Assembly (NCBI RefSeq): GCF_954871325.1
Contig: NC_088776.1
Span: forward strand, 3,169,985 to 3,233,984
Source of the DNA: Gordionus sp. m RMFG-2023
Taxonomy: Eukaryota > Nematomorpha > Gordioida > Chordodea > Parachordodidae
Reading direction: 5' to 3'
DNA length: 64,000 bases
The translations under genes and the position numbers were made by a program. Each line of letters begins with the position of its first letter. Position 1 is the stretch's first letter. Under the pieces are notes generated by a model. The model searched no databases and had not been told where the DNA came from. It worked only from the letters and a program-made list of their open reading frames with translations. Shown in pieces: positions 680 to 62,013 of the stretch.

Positions 680-7109
<6,430 letters not shown>

Positions 7110-32150: not shown

Positions 32151-32488
32151 AAATAAAGCCTTAACATCAGAGTAGGGTTTATACGAGAGAAAATTATTTG
32201 AGGTAAATAGTCCCATATTTACTTCACCCCCCCCCCTCCTTACCCTACCCATAGGAACCTACCTTTCAAGACAATATGTAGACAAATAGATCCCCCCCCC
32301 TCAATGTGTTTTAGACTGACACTTATAAATAAAGCCTTATCATCAGAGTATGGTTTATACGAGAGAAAATTATTTGAGGTAAACAGTCCTACATTTGCCT
32401 CCTCCCATCACCCTACCCATAGAAACCTTCCCTTTAAAACAATATGTAGACAGATAGATACCCCCCCCCCCTTTCACCAAGTCTCTTA
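32151..32488 (+). repeat. 176 bp tandem duplication with poly-C tracts
   Basis: Two units begin AAATAAAGCCTTA and share ATCAGAGTA, GGTTTATACGAGAGAAAATT, TAGACAAATAGAT or TAGACAGATAGAT, and end in C9-C12 tracts (32229, 32292, 32461). Identity by eye is roughly 85-90 per cent. Confidence 0.9.
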
Positions 32489-33025: not shown

Positions 33026-33312
33026 TTAAGAAGCCCGAATCTCGAAAGGAGAACCGGGCACGTGAGCATCGCCCCATTTGACGAAAATTAAATAGTCGCC
33101 GGGAATCTTGATTTCGTAAGAAACGGTATAAATGTCGGAACCCACGTGGTTTACGTTGAGGGTTTCGCATTTCGCGCGGTATTGGTTGAACGAATTAGTC
33201 CAAGTTTCGCTTTCGTTGTCGGGATGAATATCGCCATTAACCAAAGATCCGTTAGAAATGGAATGGGGATGACCGCGGCCGTAAATTCCAACCATCAAAA
33301 ATGAGTCTGAAC
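33026..33312 (-). CDS. Filamin terminal exon, form b (second half of repeat 24 with insertion)
   Basis: 94 residues and [23 protein letters not shown], about 33 extra residues (including [14 protein letters not shown]), then [20 protein letters not shown] and [20 protein letters not shown], then S. It aligns with the same half-repeat as exon 34563-34750. The insertion sits in a loop between two strands. The acceptor GCCCAG is good and the phase is identical. AATAAA candidates lie about 250 and 370 bases past the stop. Confidence 0.94.
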
Positions 33313-36300
33313 CTGGGCAATTTTGTAAAAGATAAATATTATTTTATTTTTTTTAAAAAAAATATTAATGACAAATAATGATATCTCGACTTGTCTCGTG
33401 CGATAAACGGAAACGATTTACTGACCCGAATATGGCAAAATCTCGATTAGTAATAACGAGGGTCAAAAATTTCGATTGATAGAATTCTTCGGACGCAAAA
33501 ATGTCCAGAAAATTCCTCTAAAGACTTTTGACCACGTTATAAGTAATTGCGGCGAAATGCCAGCCAACTGTAGATTAAATTGGGATTAAGTTGTTAATCG
33601 AAATTAAATTAAAATATTAAAATGGGATGCTAAAAAAAAAAAAATTGGAGGAAAAGAGGCACCAAGAGAAGAAAAAAATAGGGAAATAAGCACACGAGGT
33701 TGGCAAATAATATTAAAAAGCAATTCAGTCGTTAGTAGGGAAAACATTGGTATATTACAGTTTAAAAACCTAGTTATTTCTTTCACTCTAACTCAGCGGG
33801 TTTTCCTAAGCAAATTTACAAGAACGTGTAATCTCCCAACATAAACACTAATATCTAAGGAGATTGTTTTAACACGACATCACCAATAAGGATTTTTTTT
33901 TTAGTCGAACTTTCATAATTTATTAAACAAAATAGTAATTACTGTAATAAACCCAAAGAACACGCGATGAATAAATAAATGTAAAATAAGGCATGCAAGT
34001 AGTATATATTATTTTTTTTTTGTTAAAACACACGAGAAATGTGGCACATGTCTGTTAGAGTTTCCCAAGATTTGATTAGTGCCTAATAATTACTTAGAAT
34101 CCAGGTTGGGAAGATTCAACGGCATTCATCCCTTGCCATCGGATTTTCTCCTCTTCTTTCAGTGGATAAAATAATGGGTAATTCTAGCCAGTCGATTTTG
34201 ACACACTTTTGCTCCGGTTTTTAAAATTAAAATAATAATAAAAATTTTCACCGAGTTATGAATTTATAGAATAAGTGATTGAGAGATTGACTGCCAAAAA
34301 ATAAAATACAAATTAATTATGAAGTTTTTAAAAAGTTATAAATTTACAGGTTAAAAACTTTAATAATATACATAATACAATACAATATTTTGAAATATTA
34401 CACTTTATATAAAAAATATATATGTATATTAGTAAAATGTAATAAATAATATAATTTTTTTTTTAATATTAAAACAGAAAAATATGTTATAATATTTATT
34501 AAATATATGTATTTCATTTAAAAAAAAATTGTGAATTCTTTTCCCGGGTGTTCCCCCCTTCCCTAAATCACCTTCATGTGGAAGGGCGAACCAGGTACGT
34601 CCTTGTCTCCGTACTTGACTACCAAAAATAGATCACCCTTCTCGATGACAATGTAGCTCACCAAAAACTGGCTGCCACCTATATTCCTAACGCAAATCTC
34701 TTGACAGGGTCCCGTAGGACCCCACACATTAATTGTCAGCATATCTTGGCCTATAAATTTGGAAGAAAAGTGAAAGATAAATATTATTCGCTTTATTTAC
34801 AACCTCGACCCAATTAAAAATTAATAATATTTGAAGGGTAAACGGCTCGAAGCCGATTTAAAAAATAGCTAACTCAATATTATACTATAAGACCCTGAGA
34901 TTCCGCTAACAGATGTTCGACCTTTGTGCCATCTCGGAACAAAGTCTTCAAGGCTTGCGTGGATAAAATATTGAGTTAGCCGTTTAAAAAAAAAATAAAA
35001 ATGTGAATCGTTTTCTGGCTAACAGCTGAGCGGGTAGGATATAGGTTAAGCACTCAACCCATTCTTTCCTATATAGGTAGATCTTTCCAACTATTTATTC
35101 AAAGATAAAATTTTAACAACCCCAGGGATAAAGTCATACATAACACGTGTTTTTTTTCCATAGTTAATCCTGATTGGTGAATTTAACCGTTTTAATTTTC
35201 AAGATTTGAGAGGGATGGGTGGATAAAGTGTGCAAATAAAAATGCTTCGGGTGGGCAACGTAAAAAATAATAAATTTTTGGAATTTTGGATATAAAAAAT
35301 AAATTATTGTAAGAGTATTAGAAAATATAATTATTATCCCTTTCTTACCCAACTGGAATACAATTACTCAACGGCGCATTACCCATATGGAAAAAAGATT
35401 TAAATGTTTATTTTATACAAATTTTAATTAAAAATATCAAATTCAAAATTTTGCCTTAGATTACGTTTTTTGACAAAATATGAATGTACAATAATGAGTG
35501 TCAAACGAGTTAAAAATCATTATTTTGACAAGCAAAAAATAAATAACGTAATATTTAATCTAATTTATTTTTTTTTCGTACCAGCTTTGCTGCAATTAAC
35601 GTTGAACGAATTTTGCTTATTGATAAACGCCTTTTGTAGGCCTATACCCCTAGTTTCAACTTTGGTAGCGTCGGAGTGGAACTTGGGCAAAGAAATTTCG
35701 CTCTTGTTAGAGCTAGTCTTGGTGACCGTCTCGACGACTAAGGCAGTACTCTCTCTTCTATCGCCATGTCCGGGGGGCTTCTTACCTATGTTTCCAATTG
35801 GTTATTGTTTTTTTAAAATTAAATTTAAAAATGATTATTCACCCTTTCCCCTTTATAACCTCACTTCCTCATTCGACAAACTTTAAAAAATGTTTCGTGA
35901 GATTTTAATACTTCTTTCTGGCCGGAAAGCGTAAAAACCGAAAATTGGCGGGAAAGCGTAGAAACCGGAAATGAATCGACTTTTTTTACCTATACCGATT
36001 GCCCTAATAACAATACCTAATCTTTTTTTTACTACACGAGGCAAGCCCTAATATTTTTACTCTTAAAAGCTTTCTTTTCTTCCACATTTTCGGTTTAGAA
36101 AGGACATCTTTTAAAAGGCAAAATTTAAATATAAAAACTTATTATTATTCTAGCCATCGAAAATATAAGGTAACGACCGATAGTGAAATCGTTACATTTT
36201 CAATAAAAATCTACGAGCGACTATACTATGATAGGCGGGTAATTTATCCATGTTAAAACTAAGTTTTCAATTGACTTTTTAACAAAAAGTGCCAAACCCT

Positions 36301-57300: not shown

Positions 57301-60300
57301 GCTCACTTTCCGCGAGGATTAAAACTTTGAATTTCTCAACTTAACTTTATCGTTAAATCGATGAAAACTGAACAAACAATAATAATAATATGATTATTAA
57401 TAAGACCTCCTAACGCACATCATCAATATACGTTCATATTTTTTTCCCCATTTTGCCATTAATCTCCGAAAAATAATAGTGGAAGGGGAGGGGGGGGGGA
57501 ATATTTAGCATATGGCAAAAAAACAAACAAAACTTTCAACCAACAGTTTAACTTGTACGATACTATAACTATCTTATACTAAGTGTTTTCCAGGATAACC
57601 TCATACAAATTTAAATGTTCCCTCTCGGGAAAAAGAGTTATTATACAATGGGATAATATATAATAAATAACACTCGATTTCACTTATAAAAAAAACCATT
57701 GTTGAAATATGTTGCGAGCGACCAAAGGTGAAAGTGAAAAGAAATTTTAAAATAATTCCATCAGATAAAACATAAAACTAGGCCTGAAAAGCTATCTCGC
57801 TTTCCATTCTTTCTCCTTATATACGTTAGAAAATCAACGAAAATCGGGCCTTTTAACAACACTAGGGATATTCGCTTCGCATATTTTAAGTTAAAATTGC
57901 CAGGGAATTGATTATAGAGTTATCATTACGTTTAGTCCGAAAAAAAAGGATTTTTTCCTGCACGAGGAAAATTATAAAAGATTTTTTTTTAAAAAAAATG
58001 AATGAATGCGCATTATTTCCGGGTAAAAGTTGGGATCTAAAATTTTAATGTCGAGCAAATATCCGTGATCAAATTTCTTTCAATTTTACGCGACAAATTC
58101 AAGACTATTTTTTTTTTAAGATTAAGCAAACTAGAGGTCTGCGTTGGGCGGATTTTTCGCCCTCCCGCTCATACTATGAATAGGCATGGTAGGGTTTTTT
58201 TAAAAAAATATTTTCAACATTTAGCGGATGGTGGGCGGGTTAAAAAAATTTAAGGCGATGAGCGGGAGTTGGCAGGCGAATATTTGATTTTCCTATTTAT
58301 TAAATCGTTTCAATATCGCGTATCACATGTTTAATTAAAAAATACATCTAAATGGAAGCCAAACCAGATTGTTGATCGGGCGCCGGGTGGGCGGTTTAAA
58401 TTATTCGAAAAACAACGAGTTGGCGGGCAAAACCGGCTAAAAACCGGCCCATTGCAAGACCTCTAACGGAAACTTTCGCTTCGAATAGGACAAGGCGCGT
58501 AAATTTATTTCGCAAAAATATTAATCATAAATACATTTCAATAGGCTATTCGGTAACCCATAGAGTCATTGTTCTCGTGTTAAAAAACTACTATTTAAAT
58601 CGATAACTTGCCTTCCATTATTATTTCGACGATCAGGGCAATTTCTTTTATAAAGTTCGCGTCCGACATAGGAAATAGGGCTTCTCGTTTAAATTTTTTT
58701 AATAACGATATGGGTAACCAAAATGGCGTCCCCAGCTGTTTTTCGTCCATGTTACACTTTTTAATGAATACATCGCCAGTCTAGGTATTATTATTATATG
58801 TCATTGAGATAAGAGATAACCAAAAAATAATTATTAAGAATGAAATGTAATGTAGATAAAGGTGCGATTGGGATCCGAAATCACGCATTCATCAATCAAC
58901 CATTTTTTTAAATCCGATATGAATGGCGCCATTTTAATTAAACTTTCTTGATTCTCGAAATATGGAGTCTTCCGATAGGTATATAATGATCGATACTTTA
59001 TTATTTAAAGATACAACTGGGCGAAGGTTCACAACGGGCGGAGCGAAATGAATTATGGAACGAACGCGACTTGAGGAGTAAAAACCTGCCCAAAATCCCC
59101 ATTTAAATGCGCTTAAATTTTGGTTTTTAAATTAGGGGGCATCATTATCGAGCGTCTATTCTAGTCCGTGGCTCGTAAAAAAAATTTATCCCATTAATAA
59201 ATAAGACGGATTTTTAAAATGCGACTTACCGAATAATATGTTATGACCGTTATTTAAATTAAGGCTCCGCATAGGATTTTGACAGGTGTCAATCTTGTGG
59301 GACTTACTCTTGCCCGTAGTGTTATGAATTTTTTTTTAAAATGTAATTCGTATAATACGTCGGAGGTCAACTGAGACCCAGTGTTGTTAAAAAGCCCGAA
59401 TCGGGTCGATTTTTAAAAAACGGCCCTTTTAAGGTTATAACCGAAATAATATTATTGTAAAACTGGAGGTTTTGCCTCATAGGCTGGCAGAAAAAGTTCG
59501 GACATCTATTCGCTAAATCTTGAGGTCTACATTATATTATCTTGCCTAAAATTTTTAATCGCGGGCTTTCCAACAACACTACCAAGACCGGCTAACACTT
59601 CAAATTTAAATTATACCGCGGATAATTCTTTTAATAAATAAGATTACAAACGATAAAAAAACAATCTGATGAGGCGGCATTGACGTCTTTTGGCGGTTAA
59701 TGGAGGTCTAAAAGGTTCCCTGTGGTCTGGTCCAGAATAGGATCATCGTCTCCTCGACGGGGCGTAAAAAACCACCTAAAGGGGTTGATGTAAGGAAGGG
59801 CACCCGATTGTTAAATACTTTGCCACAAAATTTCCTGACGATTAAATAAAAGGGATGACTGGCCAACCTGGACCGGAAATCGCCAATAAACGGAGAAGAG
59901 GAATAGATCAAAAATAAGGTATAGGCGACTAATCATTATAAAAATTTCGAATTCGAAGTATTGGGAATTCGATAAACTTTGTATCGGGTCTAAAAAATTT
60001 TTTAAAAAAAATAGGTTCTAGTTGGACCGGCCTAATTTCGGACCTGTCGGTATCCAACTTGCTTTATAAACCGAACTCTAATTAAATTAGAGTTCGGGAA
60101 ACGGTTCATAAATCGATCGGGTTTCGGGCCGGTTTTCAAAACTTAAATTGTAATCGTTAAATTCATATAAAAAAAAATTCTCTATCGAAATTATTATTTA
60201 ATCAAAAGAAAATGATAAAATTTAAGATGAAAAGATTGAAAAAGAGAATTATTATTTAATCAAAAGAAAATGATAAAATTTAAGATGAAAAGATTGAAAA

Positions 60301-62013
60301 AGAGAATTATTATTTAATCAAAAGAAAATGATAAAATTTAAGATGAAAAGATTGAAAAAGAGAATTATTATTTAATCAAAAGAAAATGATAAAATTTAAG
60401 ATGAAAAGATTGAAAAAGAGAATTATTATTTAATCAAAAGAAAATGATAAAATTTAAGATGAAAAGATTGAAAAAGAGAATTATTATTTAATCAAAAGAA
60501 AATGATAAAATTTAAGATGAAGAGATTGAAAAAGAGTCGAATCATTCAAATTTAGAAGATTCACCTCAATATTTAGAACGTTTATTTCTGGAACATACCT
60601 TTTAAAAGAGCGGGAAATTTTTAGGATTTAATTTTTCGAAAGGACTTAAAAATATATAACTACACGCGGATAAACGTTTATATACGGAAATTTAAAAAAG
60701 CCGCTAAAAGCAGTGGCGTCGTTAGCGTAGATATCGCTTAGGCGATCTGACATGCATTTTCGGGTATTTTTCATAACGCAAGCAAATGATAGTGAAATGC
60801 ATTCGATAATAGATCATAAATTATACATATTATTTGCTTACTTTTGAAAAATACCACGCAATACGTCATTAGTATAAAAGAGACCTTTCGCGCCCCGCGA
60901 AGCTACTAGCGATACGCAAAAAATTAAAAGCTAATTTTGAATTATAAAATTTAAGGGGACTAGAAATTCGAAGCGTTCGGGCGGGAAAAGTTTATATACC
61001 TTTTTTTTTTAATTCACGAAAGAAATATAATTTTATTCCGCAAGCTAACTTCCGCTACGGGCATACTTAATAAGACTTAAAAAAAATCAAGTACACTACA
61101 ACAATAAATCAATGTCACGGTAAGCCCTTTAAAAGGCTTAATTTTGGCATATTATTCGCGAAAAATTTTTAAAAAATGGCATTATTTAGTTGATTTTATT
61201 ACTTTATTTAGTCGATTATATGTAAAATGAAAAAAAAGTAAATAAAATCGAGATTAAAAAAGTCACCTGTCAGGGCGAGATAAGGCAGCACGTCTATCAT
61301 ATCGTCCGAATTGGCGAAAGGTAAGGGCGGCAACGTGAACTCGACAGTCCTGAATTCGGCGAATTGAGTCAATTGTTTGAAATACCTTTCCTCTTCGATC
61401 AATTGGTGGTAGGAGGACTCCTCATCGCTCCAATCTTCCACCTAACAAATTTTTTTCGCAGTCGATGTTCGCATATTGGAGCAAAAAGAAAAAAGAAAGA
61501 TTTTAGGCTACACCCAAAGTATTAGAAAAATCGGTAGCAATCATATGATTGTTCTCTTAAAGTAAATCCTCGGAAAGTTACGCTAAAAAATATATTTTTT
61601 TTAAAAAAAAAACTAACCAAAAATTCAAAGTCCCCTTTAGGCACGGGCCGACCTCCGTAATTCGTTTCGACTTTATAAAATCCGACGTCGTCAAAATTCA
61701 GAAAAACCGTAAAGGTCCCGTCCAGGTTATCCACCACGTCCGAACATTCCTCTAGCACGTTAACGGAGGAATATTTTTCGGCGAGAGGAGATATCGAGCC
61801 GGCGTTCTAAGTGAGATAAGGAGGGAAAAAAAAGGAGCGTTTAATTTATTTTATCGAAAGTCGGGAAGCAAACCTTTTTTTGGCGGGTGGCTAAGCAGGT
61901 GATTTTAGCGGTGACGTCGTCCGTAATCAGGCTAGATTTTGAAGCGTCCACTTTGAAGCACTGCTCCCATTTCTTTTTGATCCTTATAGGTTTGGTATCG
62001 CGAGGGAAATTTT
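33026..62013 (-). CDS. Filamin, 3' half (repeats 15-24 equivalents), with alternative first and last exons
   Basis: Filamins are actin-crosslinking scaffolds made of an actin-binding domain and a chain of about 24 Ig-like repeats; the last repeat dimerises. Exons on the minus strand: 61874-62013, 61618-61806, 61267-61441, 53461-53535, 51251-51391, 47318-47446, 46288-46461, 45966-46121, 45066-45269, 44755-44907, 39615-39743, 38921-39085, 38608-38721, 38182-38315, 37706-38000, 37302-37439, 36925-37035, 36494-36598, 35582-35785, then either 34563-34750 or 33026-33312. All have GT-AG borders and all phases agree. Aligned from memory with human FLNA, the order matches repeats 15 to 24 without a gap, including the linker before repeat 24. 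The exon 54142-54259 is a likely alternative start. The actin-binding domain lies beyond 64000. Drosophila's homologue is cheerio. Confidence 0.95.
33313..34562. other. Segment between the two alternative filamin terminal exons
   Basis: 3' UTR and polyadenylation region of form a, and intron for form b. AT-rich, with AATAAA on the minus strand at 34495-34500. No further coding signal. Confidence 0.75.
34563..34750 (-). CDS. Filamin terminal exon, form a (second half of repeat 24)
   Basis: 61 residues and [43 protein letters not shown] and [20 protein letters not shown], then I. Length and pattern are those of the human dimerisation repeat (NMLLIGVHGPTTPCEE, SPFHVTVP). Its acceptor (TTATAG, with a pyrimidine tract) is in the right phase. 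AATAAA lies about 65 bases past the stop (34495-34500, minus strand). Confidence 0.95.
34838..35010. mobile_element. MITE family B relic
   Basis: GGTAAACGGCTCGAAGCCGA at the left, AGCTAACTCAATATTATA, CTAACAGATGTTCGACC, GCTTGCGTGGATAAAATATT and GAGTTAGCCGTTT at the right. It shares its block order with 4646-4872 and lies in the intron before terminal exon a. Confidence 0.65.
35582..35785 (-). CDS. Filamin exon: hinge before the last repeat and first half of repeat 24
   Basis: [60 protein letters not shown] and NVNCSKA. The order matches human hinge 2 (SSILVESVTRSS) and repeat 24 (DASKVTSKGAGLSKAF, VDCSKAG). It leaves one base, G, which both downstream terminal exons can use. This is the common donor of the alternative 3' ends. 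Confidence 0.96.
36494..36598 (-). CDS. Filamin exon: repeat 23, second part
   Basis: [20 protein letters not shown], then [15 protein letters not shown]. Human: GYKVMYTPMAPGNYLISVKY and HIVGSPFKAKV. A very short acceptor context (GGCAAG) precedes it. Confidence 0.95.
36925..37035 (-). CDS. Filamin exon: repeat 23, first part
   Basis: [20 protein letters not shown] and [16 protein letters not shown]. Matches FLNA SEFFINTTRAGPGTLSVTI and EGPSKVKMDCQE. Confidence 0.95.
37302..37439 (-). CDS. Filamin exon: end of repeat 22, start of repeat 23
   Basis: [40 protein letters not shown] and THPKL. SPF.IRVG and SGTGL agree with FLNA SPFKVRVG and AYGTGL. Confidence 0.94.
37706..38000 (-). CDS. Filamin exon: end of repeat 21 and most of repeat 22
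   Basis: The largest exon seen, 98 codons plus one base: [40 protein letters not shown], and after it [20 protein letters not shown]. It aligns with FLNA YEVSIKFNDEHIPESPYLV, VMSLQESGLKVN and INGAKGKIDAKVHSPSG. It is noticeably richer in GC than the introns. Confidence 0.96.
38182..38315 (-). CDS. Filamin exon: repeat 21 equivalent
   Basis: [20 protein letters not shown], then [20 protein letters not shown] and VCKE. Human repeat 21 ([20 protein letters not shown]) is the main integrin-tail binding repeat. Here the PSKAEI segment after it reads PGKSDI, so ligand binding may differ. Confidence 0.94.
38608..38721 (-). CDS. Filamin exon: end of repeat 20, start of repeat 21
   Basis: [20 protein letters not shown], then [17 protein letters not shown]. 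It matches FLNA SPFQFTVGPLGEGGAHKV and GGPGLERGEAGVP with equal length. Donor GTTATT. Confidence 0.94.
38921..39085 (-). CDS. Filamin exon: repeat 20 equivalent
   Basis: [40 protein letters not shown] and [15 protein letters not shown]. It closely matches FLNA DMSAHVTSPSG and GVHTVSVKYRGQHV. The donor is a poor GTTCCA, and the frame stays open for 19 more codons beyond it before a stop. Confidence 0.93.
39615..39743 (-). CDS. Filamin exon: end of repeat 19, start of repeat 20
   Basis: [20 protein letters not shown] and [27 protein letters not shown] matches ICDLNLKI of human repeat 20. Splice donor GTTAGT. Confidence 0.94.
40070..40200 (+). repeat. Imperfect tandem repeat, about 50 bp x 2.5
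   Basis: Three occurrences of (T)AGACGAAGCAGGTTGTCAGTCA, with variants ACGACGCAGGTTGTCTGTCA and AGACGTAGGTTGTCTGTCA, separated by ATATAGAAGGTCAGT-like sequence. Confidence 0.75.
40639..40660 (+). repeat. Poly-G tract of about 22
   Basis: An uninterrupted G run in a filamin intron; the longest of many G/C homopolymers in this otherwise AT-rich window. Confidence 0.95.
41270..41495. mobile_element. MITE family B relic
   Basis: Left AAATGCTCGTTTTGAGCC, interior GATTTTGCTCATAGAAGGAA and CAAAGGTCTAGACA, then AAAATATTGAATTAGCCGG and the right end AAACGAACCGTTTAACAAAA. Same family as 4646 and 52470. Confidence 0.65.
41950..43060 (-). mobile_element. RTE-like LINE fragment (endonuclease domain), decayed
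   Basis: The minus strand reads [20 protein letters not shown] at about 43045-42990, equal to the ATWNVGSLTGR..EVV start of RTE-type apurinic endonucleases (the family often annotated as craniofacial development protein 2-like). Further on are [18 protein letters not shown] (about 42815-42768) and, more decayed, segments resembling the LVTY...SQIDFIL and TQHR..V end of the domain. Frames change several times and stops are frequent; it is a dead 5' piece without reverse transcriptase. It lies antisense in the plus strand and sense with filamin. Confidence 0.72.
43710..44053 (+). mobile_element. MITE family A, copy 3
   Basis: CAATGACATATAATAATAAC at the left and GGTATTACTATTATGTCAAT at the right. 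The interior has CAGCTGAGGACGCCATTTTG and AAAATGGCGGGTCCAGCTG. Same orientation as copy 1 and about 344 bp long. Confidence 0.85.
44755..44907 (-). CDS. Filamin exon: repeat 19 equivalent
   Basis: [40 protein letters not shown] and [10 protein letters not shown]. Human repeat 19 reads FADEHVPGSPF at the same place. Repeats 19 and 21 carry ligand-binding CD faces in vertebrates. Confidence 0.95.
45066..45269 (-). CDS. Filamin exon: end of repeat 18, start of repeat 19
   Basis: [20 protein letters not shown], then [20 protein letters not shown] and [20 protein letters not shown]. It matches FLNA GISFIPREVGEHLVSI and QSEIGDARRAKVYG. Confidence 0.96.
45966..46121 (-). CDS. Filamin exon: repeat 18 equivalent
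   Basis: [40 protein letters not shown] and [12 protein letters not shown]. Like human repeat 18 it lacks the usual GPGL start, as expected for a repeat that packs as a pair with its neighbour. Donor is GTTCTT. Confidence 0.92.
46288..46461 (-). CDS. Filamin exon: repeat 17 equivalent
   Basis: [40 protein letters not shown] and [18 protein letters not shown] complete filamin D-to-G strand pattern. Donor GTAAAG. Confidence 0.96.
46587..46745. mobile_element. Small palindromic element, family C, with telomere-like CCCTAACCCTAAC units
   Basis: TATCGAGAATTCGCGGCGAA (GTATA) at the left is inverted as TATACTTCGCCGCGAATTGG (CGATA) at the right. Between them is a degenerate 54 bp direct duplication, each unit ending in CCTAACCCTAACTATAC. 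Unlike the other copies the interior is not the ACAAAATATG core. Confidence 0.75.
47318..47446 (-). CDS. Filamin exon: end of repeat 16, start of repeat 17
   Basis: Reads [20 protein letters not shown], then [20 protein letters not shown]. It matches FLNA SPLQFYV and AYGPGLVYGVANKTATFT. Repeat 17 binds GPIb-alpha in human filamin A; conservation of that surface is not judged here. Confidence 0.95.
47648..47949. mobile_element. hAT-like MITE (family D)
   Basis: Ends CAGAGACCTTCACAGGCC and inverted GGCCCATGAAGGTCTCTG. CAGAG...CTCTG is a hAT-type terminus. Subterminal regions are GC-rich (AAGCCCGGCCTGGCC, GGCCTGCAGGCCGGCCCGGC), the centre is AT-rich. C-rich flanks on both sides hide the target duplication. 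Confidence 0.75.
48171..48245. mobile_element. Small palindromic element, family C
   Basis: GTTGGCGCGGAATTTGCAGC with GAATTGTACAAAATG at the left faces TATTTTTGTATTTTCCGCGG and CGAATAGGCGCCAAC at the right: an almost perfect 75 bp palindrome. Confidence 0.75.
48877..49185 (+). repeat. 157 bp tandem duplication
   Basis: Both units share TCTTCGGGGA, GAGGCCCAGCTGTAAAATAT or AAGGCCCAGCTGTAAAATAT, TTTGTTTTAAATA, GCTGCCAAAAATATA and ACCGGAAATCATT. Roughly 85 per cent alike by eye. Confidence 0.9.
49881..50113. mobile_element. Probable hAT-like MITE relic with (GGGCC)n interior
   Basis: Starts AGAGATCTCTGCGAATCACG and contains TTCGGGTTCGGTC and GGACCGGGCCGGGCCGGG. The right end (near AAATCGC...AGATCTCGAG) is degraded. 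Placed with family D because of the AGAG.TCTGC start and the GC-rich interior. Confidence 0.5.
51251..51391 (-). CDS. Filamin exon: repeat 16 equivalent
   Basis: Encodes [20 protein letters not shown] and [20 protein letters not shown]. It aligns with human FLNA repeat 16, TGTVHMPSGKTATPEIVDN, including YAPTEVGLHE. The end of the repeat (GSPYQFYV) is in the next exon. Confidence 0.95.
52210..52440 (+). mobile_element. Fossil Ty3/gypsy-like reverse transcriptase fragment
   Basis: A short piece of pol covering the segment just before and at the start of the reverse transcriptase domain, recognised by the FSPIF..CRR.PF and I..G.I.P..YS.WATPL pattern. Nothing of gag, integrase or LTRs is beside it. 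It is broken and lies antisense to filamin in an intron. Confidence 0.68.
52455..52712. mobile_element. MITE family B relic
   Basis: TTTTTAAATGGCTCGATTTG at the left; GAAGAGTTCGCTCATAGATG, CACAAAGGTCCAGACA and GAGTCTCGCGTAATATAAT inside; GTCGTTTAGTAACACTGGTA at the right. It abuts the reverse transcriptase fossil. Confidence 0.65.
53461..53535 (-). CDS. Filamin exon: small exon with LLHPGF core
   Basis: 75 bases, two plus 24 codons plus one, encoding (V)[19 protein letters not shown] and SDLEG. Phases fit the exon at 61267 before it and that at 51391 after it. The LLHPGF core is shared with the alternative first exon at 54142. Donor GTAAGT is a strong consensus; the acceptor AAAAG lacks a clear pyrimidine tract. 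Confidence 0.78.
54142..54259 (-). CDS. Filamin alternative first exon (short isoform start)
   Basis: ATG at 54259, 39 codons plus one base, reading [20 protein letters not shown] and [19 protein letters not shown], donor GTAATA. It leaves the same phase as the exon at 53461-53535, so it can join 51251-51391 directly and give [11 protein letters not shown] in frame. None of the AG dinucleotides within or just before it would accept the phase left by the exon at 61267, so it cannot simply be an internal exon after that one. Transcripts from here would encode about 885 or 918 residues, repeats 16-24. No stop is seen just upstream in frame, so the start codon is an inference. Confidence 0.7.
54700..54867. 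mobile_element. hAT-like MITE relic (family D), right end
   Basis: Repeated CCGGCCCGAA, CGAACCCGAATAA and AAGCCCGACCCGAA units, ending TGATTTGCAGACCTCTA. The TGCAGACCTCTA end is the inverse of TAGAGGTCTGC at 58131. The left end is not evident. Confidence 0.6.
55571..55908 (+). repeat. 188 bp tandem duplication
   Basis: Both units start CGAATAAAATAATAATTCAC and ATGCGTATATTAATTTAATA, and share ATAGCGTTTCGGTGTTCGAA, GGGAAGAATAT and GTCGAAATA. The second unit lacks about 30 bases. Confidence 0.9.
58131..58466. mobile_element. hAT-like MITE (family D)
   Basis: The left end TAGAGGTCTGCGTTGGGCGG and the inverted right end GGCCCATTGCAAGACCTCTA bound about 335 bp. The subterminal parts are GC-rich (GCGGATTTTTCGCCCTCCCG; GGGCGCCGGGTGGGCGG), the centre AT-rich. 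A lone matching end is at 56551 (TAGAGGTCTGCGAAAACGC). Confidence 0.7.
58545..58806 (-). mobile_element. MITE family A, copy 4 (left end truncated)
   Basis: Starts inside the element at GGTAACCCATAGAGTCATT, keeps the central block (CGATAACTTGCCTTCC, CGATCAGGGCAATTTC) and the complete right end AAAATGGCGTCCCCAGCTG ... GTCTAGGTATTATTATTATA and TGTCATTG. Same orientation as copy 2. Confidence 0.82.
59380..59586. mobile_element. MITE family B with both ends
   Basis: The left end CAGTGTTGTTAAAAAGCCCG is inverted at the right as GCGGGCTTTCCAACAACACT. The interior has TTTTTAAAAAACGGCCC, GGACATCTATTCGCTAAATC and TTGAGGTCTACATTATA. Confidence 0.72.
60191..60536 (+). repeat. 58 bp minisatellite, 6 units
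   Basis: Six head-to-tail copies starting TTATTATTTAATCAAAAGAA at 60191, 60249, 60307, 60365, 60423 and 60481. The first five are identical as far as I can see; the last has one A to G change (AAGAGATTG) and runs directly into unique sequence. Confidence 0.97.
61267..61441 (-). CDS. Filamin exon: acidic linker between repeats 15 and 16
   Basis: 58 codons plus one base. It reads [40 protein letters not shown] and then [18 protein letters not shown]. The first half is strongly acidic and not an Ig fold. It occupies the place of the stretch in human FLNA that follows repeat 15 (around PPGFRPWVTEEAYVP). The splice donor is GTGACT. Confidence 0.85.
61618..61806 (-). CDS. Filamin exon: rest of repeat 15 equivalent
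   Basis: 63 codons, phase 0 both sides. It contains the typical [13 protein letters not shown]...[12 protein letters not shown] and [11 protein letters not shown], equal to the DG.Y.V.Y.P...G.Y.V.V.YGG..IP.SPF pattern. The intron before it is only 67 bases. Donor GTTAGT. Confidence 0.92.
61874..62013 (-). CDS. Filamin exon: first part of repeat 15 equivalent
   Basis: Two bases plus 46 codons, including [20 protein letters not shown] and [15 protein letters not shown].....VTAKI is the B-C strand region of a filamin repeat. The acceptor reads TTTAG and the donor is the weaker GTTTGC. It is the most 5' exon I can see; the preceding one is beyond the foldback or off-window. Confidence 0.82.

Follow-up and report, generated by a model that had tools for sequence, protein, structure and literature searches.

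Two putative alternative last exons for the dimerisation repeat of a hairworm filamin gene

The 3′ end of the filamin gene

The minus strand of the window, by which we mean the whole 64-kb stretch of DNA from the hairworm Gordionus (phylum Nematomorpha) analysed here, carries the 3′ part of the filamin gene. A profile search of the window returned filamin matches on this strand between 51.4 and 33 kb. By eye, filamin-like open reading frames (ORFs) extend to ~62 kb, and in the right flank strong filamin matches reach ~77 kb and weak ones ~80.7 kb (coordinates of the window plus flank). The features at the 3′ end of the gene are as follows.

35582..35785, minus strand: E1, the common exon, encoding hinge 2 and the first half of repeat 24; phase 1 at both ends
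34751..35581, minus strand: last intron of the predicted E2 form, GT...AG, 831 nt
34770..34788, minus strand: shared intronic element AATAATATTTATCTTTYAC, 19 nt before the E2 acceptor (repeat scan)
34563..34750, minus strand: E2, proximal putative alternative last exon, encoding the second half of repeat 24 (62 residues, ending ...HMKVI and a stop)
34495..34500, minus strand: AATAAA, at position 63 past the E2 stop
33313..35581, minus strand: last intron of the predicted E3 form, which skips E2 and the E2 poly(A) signal, GT...AG, 2269 nt
33325..33343, minus strand: shared intronic element AATAATATTTATCTTTYAC, 12 nt before the E3 acceptor (repeat scan)
33026..33312, minus strand: E3, distal putative alternative last exon, encoding the second half of repeat 24 (95 residues, ending ...EIRAS and a stop)
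33170..33277, minus strand: codons of the E3 B–C loop, 36 residues, where the references have 4 residues
32775..32780, minus strand: first AATAAA past the E3 stop, at position 246

E1 is in frame with the preceding exon, whose phase-1 donor is GAAG/GTAAAT, and has its acceptor at 35785 (both assigned by eye). At its 3′ end, E1 encodes ...CSKA and leaves one base (G), with which the first bases of E2 (GC) and of E3 (GT) each complete a glycine codon, keeping the frame. E2 and E3 are therefore homologous neighbours with the same entry phase and their own stops, the pattern of tandem-duplicated last exons. Sequence and translation agreed with the initial annotation in the coordinates, the phase, the common glycine, the second half of the repeat, the VPGSPF motif, and the separate stops. 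The E1 donor, CTG/GTACGA, is presumably weak in comparison with the consensus, and the pyrimidine tract before the acceptor is poorer for E3 (0.56) than for E2 (0.75). AATAAA is present after each of the two exons, a hexamer that is weak evidence in AT-rich DNA. Just before the E2 stop, we noticed by eye a donor-like AAG/GTGATT (34566-34574, minus strand); splicing from this site into E3 would shift the frame, and a stop would follow after five codons.

Searches of the 287 Mb genome gave one match for E1 and one for the E3 DNA, while the E3 protein matched itself and E2 only among the best candidates scored. The E values of the E2–E3 protein match were 1.3e-4 and 2.5e-5 in the genome searches. 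With E1 single and the E3 protein matching only itself and E2 among these candidates, the searches offered no alternative first half for E3 and no further filamin end from which it could come. A third exon copy was likewise absent from the window ORFs and the genome searches, the third E2 match (E = 0.138) being an upstream exon of the same filamin gene.

A deposited model of Gordionus sp. m RMFG-2023 (P0001, 134 residues) matches E3 residue for residue from SDSF to its C-terminus. Its sequence fits the E3 acceptor at 33312, and it is annotated as a gene separate from filamin. The first ~39 residues of P0001 come from the ORF at 33368-33517 (minus strand), which gave no match to filamin profiles. 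No Gordionus protein with E1 appeared among the matches listed (3; 1; best 120 of 2174; length-limited searches). P0004, a protein close to vertebrate FLNC, has by eye ~32 extra residues resembling a retained intron at the same SKA/G point, and the position of the last intron is therefore probably ancestral.

Repeats were also recorded elsewhere in the window. At 32151-32468, just past the 3′ end of the gene, lie two adjacent direct repeats, both imperfect (80 nt at 89% and 71 nt at 83%; spacing ~170 nt); a 58-nt unit occurs six times with 99% matches at 60189-60536, probably within a filamin intron; and a perfect AAAG array of 57.5 copies occupies 4171-4400.

Repeat type, coding character, and a shared intronic element

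Both spliced products exceeded the Pfam cut-off for the Filamin/ABP280 repeat (PF00630), with 60 bits for E1+E2 and 58.6 bits for E1+E3 versus 26.9, and for each of them the four best matches in a phmmer search of PDB sequences were domain-24 entries, two from FLNC and one each from FLNB and FLNA. We also used a repeat-24 profile, made from 51 distinct vertebrate repeat-24 sequences together with P0002 and P0003, and an other-repeat profile, made from 7 vertebrate filamins. E2 alone scored 70.4 bits with the repeat-24 profile versus 40.1 with the other-repeat profile, and E3 alone 60.1 versus 36.7, rising to 72.6 versus 38.9 when its loop was removed. The corresponding values were 124.6 versus 71.1 bits for E1+E2 and 110.3 versus 56.2 bits for E1+E3. 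Three control stretches from other Gordionus repeats scored higher with the other-repeat profile than with the repeat-24 profile. The repeat formed by E1 with either exon is the last one, lies after hinge 2, and meets its stop after strand G. Judged from sequence, both E2 and E3 are of the repeat-24 type, the dimerisation repeat. The derivation of E3 from the second-half exon of another repeat was also considered and was ruled out by the profile scores.

The E3 half (94 residues) was modelled with AlphaFold2 from a 4-sequence alignment of repeat-24 proteins, and the model (mean pLDDT 65) contained five strands. The first four hits of a Foldseek search of the PDB with this model were the domain-24 entries 8pa0, 1v05, 3cnk, and 2eed, with an E value of 8e-4 for the first and 2e-3 to 4e-2 for the next. 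Because the model covers half a domain and the comparison is also sequence-based, we used it solely for the loop position and the fold class.

The GC content is 47% in E2, 46% in E3, and 47% in E1, versus 28-29% in the intron and in the gap between E2 and E3. The codon scores of E2 (0.33) and E3 (0.25) were above the maximum of 0.0005 among 5000 control windows; the intron-like sequence that supplied these windows was also the background of the score. In GC and codon make-up, the two exons resemble constitutive filamin exons, and E3 is open for 95 codons (P ~0.002 for intron-like sequence). The insert of E3 has a codon score of 0.16, which is coding-like and weaker than that of the whole exon. 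A micro-intron excising this insert was rejected: there are 19 GT..AG pairs of at least 40 nt, 9 of them in frame, and all remove core strands, none the insert alone.

Over 54 aligned codons, E2 and E3 differ at 28 first, 21 second, and 39 third positions. The third positions are near saturation and the second positions are held, as expected for proteins kept under selection. For residue conservation, the reference set consisted of P0002, P0003, and the best 120 of 2174 matches. This set excluded P0001 and P0004 and is biased towards closely related vertebrate sequences of the canonical type. Among the 16 columns invariant in the 41 distinct reference halves, E3 retains 14/16 and E2 8/16, making the E3 core the more canonical by this measure. 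The exon duplication put forward in the initial annotation is supported, with both copies coding-like and of the dimerisation-repeat type.

The intronic element AATAATATTTATCTTTYAC has two exact matches in the 287 Mb genome, namely the sites before the two acceptors, and its reversed control has none; when one mismatch is allowed, the genome counts rise to 40 for the element and 27 for the reversed control. When random pairs of AG-ended 70-mers were drawn from the window, 10 of 20,000 reached the ungapped match score of the two upstream stretches. In 124 kb, the 3′ part of the element, TATCTTTYAC, occurs twice on this strand, both times at these acceptors, and twice on the other strand. It was absent from the stretches around eight other exons of the filamin gene, where the acceptors are approximate. 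The two copies have 18/19 identical intron bases despite the near-saturated third positions of the exons, which suggests common descent together with constraint. The element might act in splicing, for example as a branch-point region or a regulator site. A scan for a docking site that covered E1, the E1–E2 intron, the E2–E3 gap, and 526 nt after E3 found none, the duplex energies being no better than with shuffled targets, and nothing in the window reached the gathering score of an Rfam family.

Divergence at the predicted dimer surface

The distance from the strand-B glycine to the strand-C cysteine is 36 residues in E3 versus 4 in 122/122 reference proteins examined. The loop of E3 consequently holds ~32 extra residues, rich in N, S, and H, beside dimer strand C. 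In the AlphaFold2 half-domain model, it forms no strand, and the runs 15-28 and 38-46 (23/36 residues) have a pLDDT <50. The loop is probably polar and flexible.

Outside the loop, E2 and E3 are identical at 20/54 residues. Identity with nine reference repeat-24 sequences (54 residues) was 22-28 for E2 and 26-30 for E3, both exceeding that of E2 with E3. In a tree of repeat-24 halves, E2 and E3 were not joined, with supports of 22-67, which are too low to decide or date the duplication.

In the vertebrate structures, strands C and D of repeat 24 hold the two filamin monomers together. HSPB7 binding competes with homodimer formation in FLNC, the two complexes having strand C/D surfaces that overlap, and the contacts are M2667, M2669, T2677 (at the edge), E2681, Y2683, H2686, and R2690 (PMC12046049, in excerpt). 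By alignment, with position 2677 placed by eye, E2 has M2667, T2669, G2677, E2681, C2683, N2686, and S2690, and E3 has F2667, M2669, the loop at 2677, T2681, N2683, H2686, and D2690. At positions 2667, 2669, 2681, and 2683, E2 retains M2667 and E2681 of the four FLNC contacts, and E3 retains M2669.

In the dimer-contact segment (FLNC 2666-2693), E2–E3 identity is 5/24 versus 15/30 elsewhere. None of 820 reference pairs was as low (0/820), and the reference average was slightly opposite; these pairs are non-independent and, by name, vertebrate save for P0002 and P0003. Taken alone, the skew is modest (Fisher p = 0.046). Identity to the references in the contact segment versus the rest was 0.35 versus 0.56 for E2 and 0.45 versus 0.54 for E3, so that the skew, measured against the references, lies more in E2 than in E3. 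Given non-independent and almost entirely vertebrate references and this p value, we regard the apparent concentration of E2/E3 divergence in the dimer-contact segment as suggestive.

The initial annotation had stated that the two halves differ widely. The difference is real and consists mostly of the E3 insertion, with the remainder appearing to concentrate in the dimer-contact segment. Its further proposal of two dimerisation surfaces gains indirect support from the C/D-strand substitutions and the long E3 loop beside strand C, which are consistent with distinct surfaces.

Interpretation and relation to known filamins

The observed exon anatomy and frame, the repeat-24 identity of both exons, the single E1, the coding character, the site of divergence, and the shared element, drawn from one genome and compared with mostly vertebrate references, make it quite probable that the hairworm filamin gene has two functional alternative last exons. 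Under this reading, the last filamin exon would have been duplicated in tandem long ago, with both copies retained. Splicing of the E1 donor to E2 would give an mRNA that ends with the E2 stop and then the E2 poly(A) site; splicing to E3 would skip E2 and its poly(A) site. Either choice would complete repeat 24 and yield one filamin rod with two alternative C-termini, of which the E3 form would add a loop of ~32 extra residues at the edge of the dimer interface. Both junctions would then be used in RNA, and both products would fold and dimerise, perhaps with some selectivity. In view of the differences at the FLNC partner-contact positions and of the E3 loop, it is probable that the two products form dimers of unequal strength or choose different partners.

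The estimate given above applies to the presence of two functional last exons alone, and this core is common to a competing account in which both exons are used and the choice is unrelated to pairing. The exons would then serve other partners of the C–D face, such as small GTPases or heat-shock-like caps, or 3′ UTR control, in which the UTR variant would provide tissue-specific control of the mRNA; dimerisation would be unchanged. HSPB7 does bind domain 24 of FLNC through the same strands (PMC12046049, in excerpt), FLNA repeat 24 binds RhoA, Rac1, and Cdc42 as stated in a C. elegans paper (PMC3143143, in excerpt), and an AATAAA follows each exon. However, the divergence falls on the homodimer contact segment, and a pure UTR switch would have no need of a diverged coding half. 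We consider this account possible, at well below even chances.

Accounts that deny E3 a role in filamin fare less well. The weaker E3 acceptor, the odd insertion, and the deposited model that leaves E3 unjoined to filamin would suit E3 as the remnant of a 3′-end duplication, now without splicing to filamin. Such a remnant is unlikely: E3 has 95 open codons (P ~0.002) with filamin-like codon use, retains 14/16 invariant residues though third positions differ in 39/54 codons, and keeps an intact acceptor with the shared element upstream. Still less credible, to the point of being very improbable, is a separate small gene containing E3, as in P0001. This model is deposited for Gordionus and its sequence fits the acceptor at 33312, yet the model may be no more than a prediction, its first ~39 residues are unmatched by filamin profiles, and its product would be half an immunoglobulin-like domain.

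Starting from two functional last exons, a more specific proposal can be advanced tentatively, namely that half-domain exchange might create two self-sorting filamin classes, with the loop gating the interface edge and the 19-nt element setting the choice. In vertebrates, FLNB and FLNC heterodimerise, and FLNA joins neither (PMC12193154, PMC7216277, both in excerpt). By analogy with this exclusion of FLNA from an FLNB/FLNC pair, selectivity in the hairworm appears plausible, and we infer no more than that.

The hairworm repeat resembles IgFLN24 of vertebrate FLNA, FLNB, and FLNC in its Pfam family, its C-terminal place after hinge 2, and its best structures, and probably also in the position of the last intron. 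All the references examined (122/122; the best 120 of 2174 plus P0002 and P0003) have the canonical ending with a 4-residue B–C loop, whereas the hairworm has two endings, one with a B–C loop of 36 residues. Like the hairworm protein, C. elegans FLN-1 and Drosophila Cheerio are filamins of ecdysozoans in which the dimerisation repeat is conserved, and both exist as several isoforms. Fly and worm isoforms arise from alternative starts, alternative splicing, and truncation (PMC5521747, PMC3143143, both in excerpt): the Cheerio isoforms have the last eight Ig domains in common (PMC5521747), fln-1b ends early by alternative splicing and has two repeats absent from fln-1a, and fln-1c has a different start (PMC3143143). 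The excerpted texts of these two sources make no mention, for FLN-1 or Cheerio, of a last repeat with interchangeable second halves (PMC5521747, PMC3143143).

The swap of duplicated exons for half an Ig domain as a unit would be shared with Dscam-hv. The exchanged exons of Dscam-hv have a role in homophilic specificity. They encode the N-terminal halves of Ig2 and Ig3 and are exchanged as a unit (PMC3364881, in excerpt). The two systems differ in that Dscam-hv uses internal exons, N-terminal halves, and many variants, whereas the hairworm would use the last exon, the C-terminal half, and two variants; moreover, docking/selector pairing of the Dscam type was not found for the hairworm element in the stretches scanned. 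The same filamin arrangement was not found among the titles and abstract openings of the open-licence literature on filamin isoforms and alternative exons. As far as these literature searches go, half-Ig exon exchange is of a known kind and its place in filamin is new.

Filamin geometry depends on the dimer. If the proposal is correct, a single locus could supply separate cross-linker populations within a cell, and the half-Ig-domain exon swap known from Dscam would have an intracellular use. The two exons would also offer a natural interface pair on which to work out the residues that govern how filamins pair; in vertebrates, this problem is bound up with three paralogues and with FLNC disease. 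The hairworm would then gain by splicing what vertebrates gained by gene duplication (FLNA versus FLNB/FLNC).
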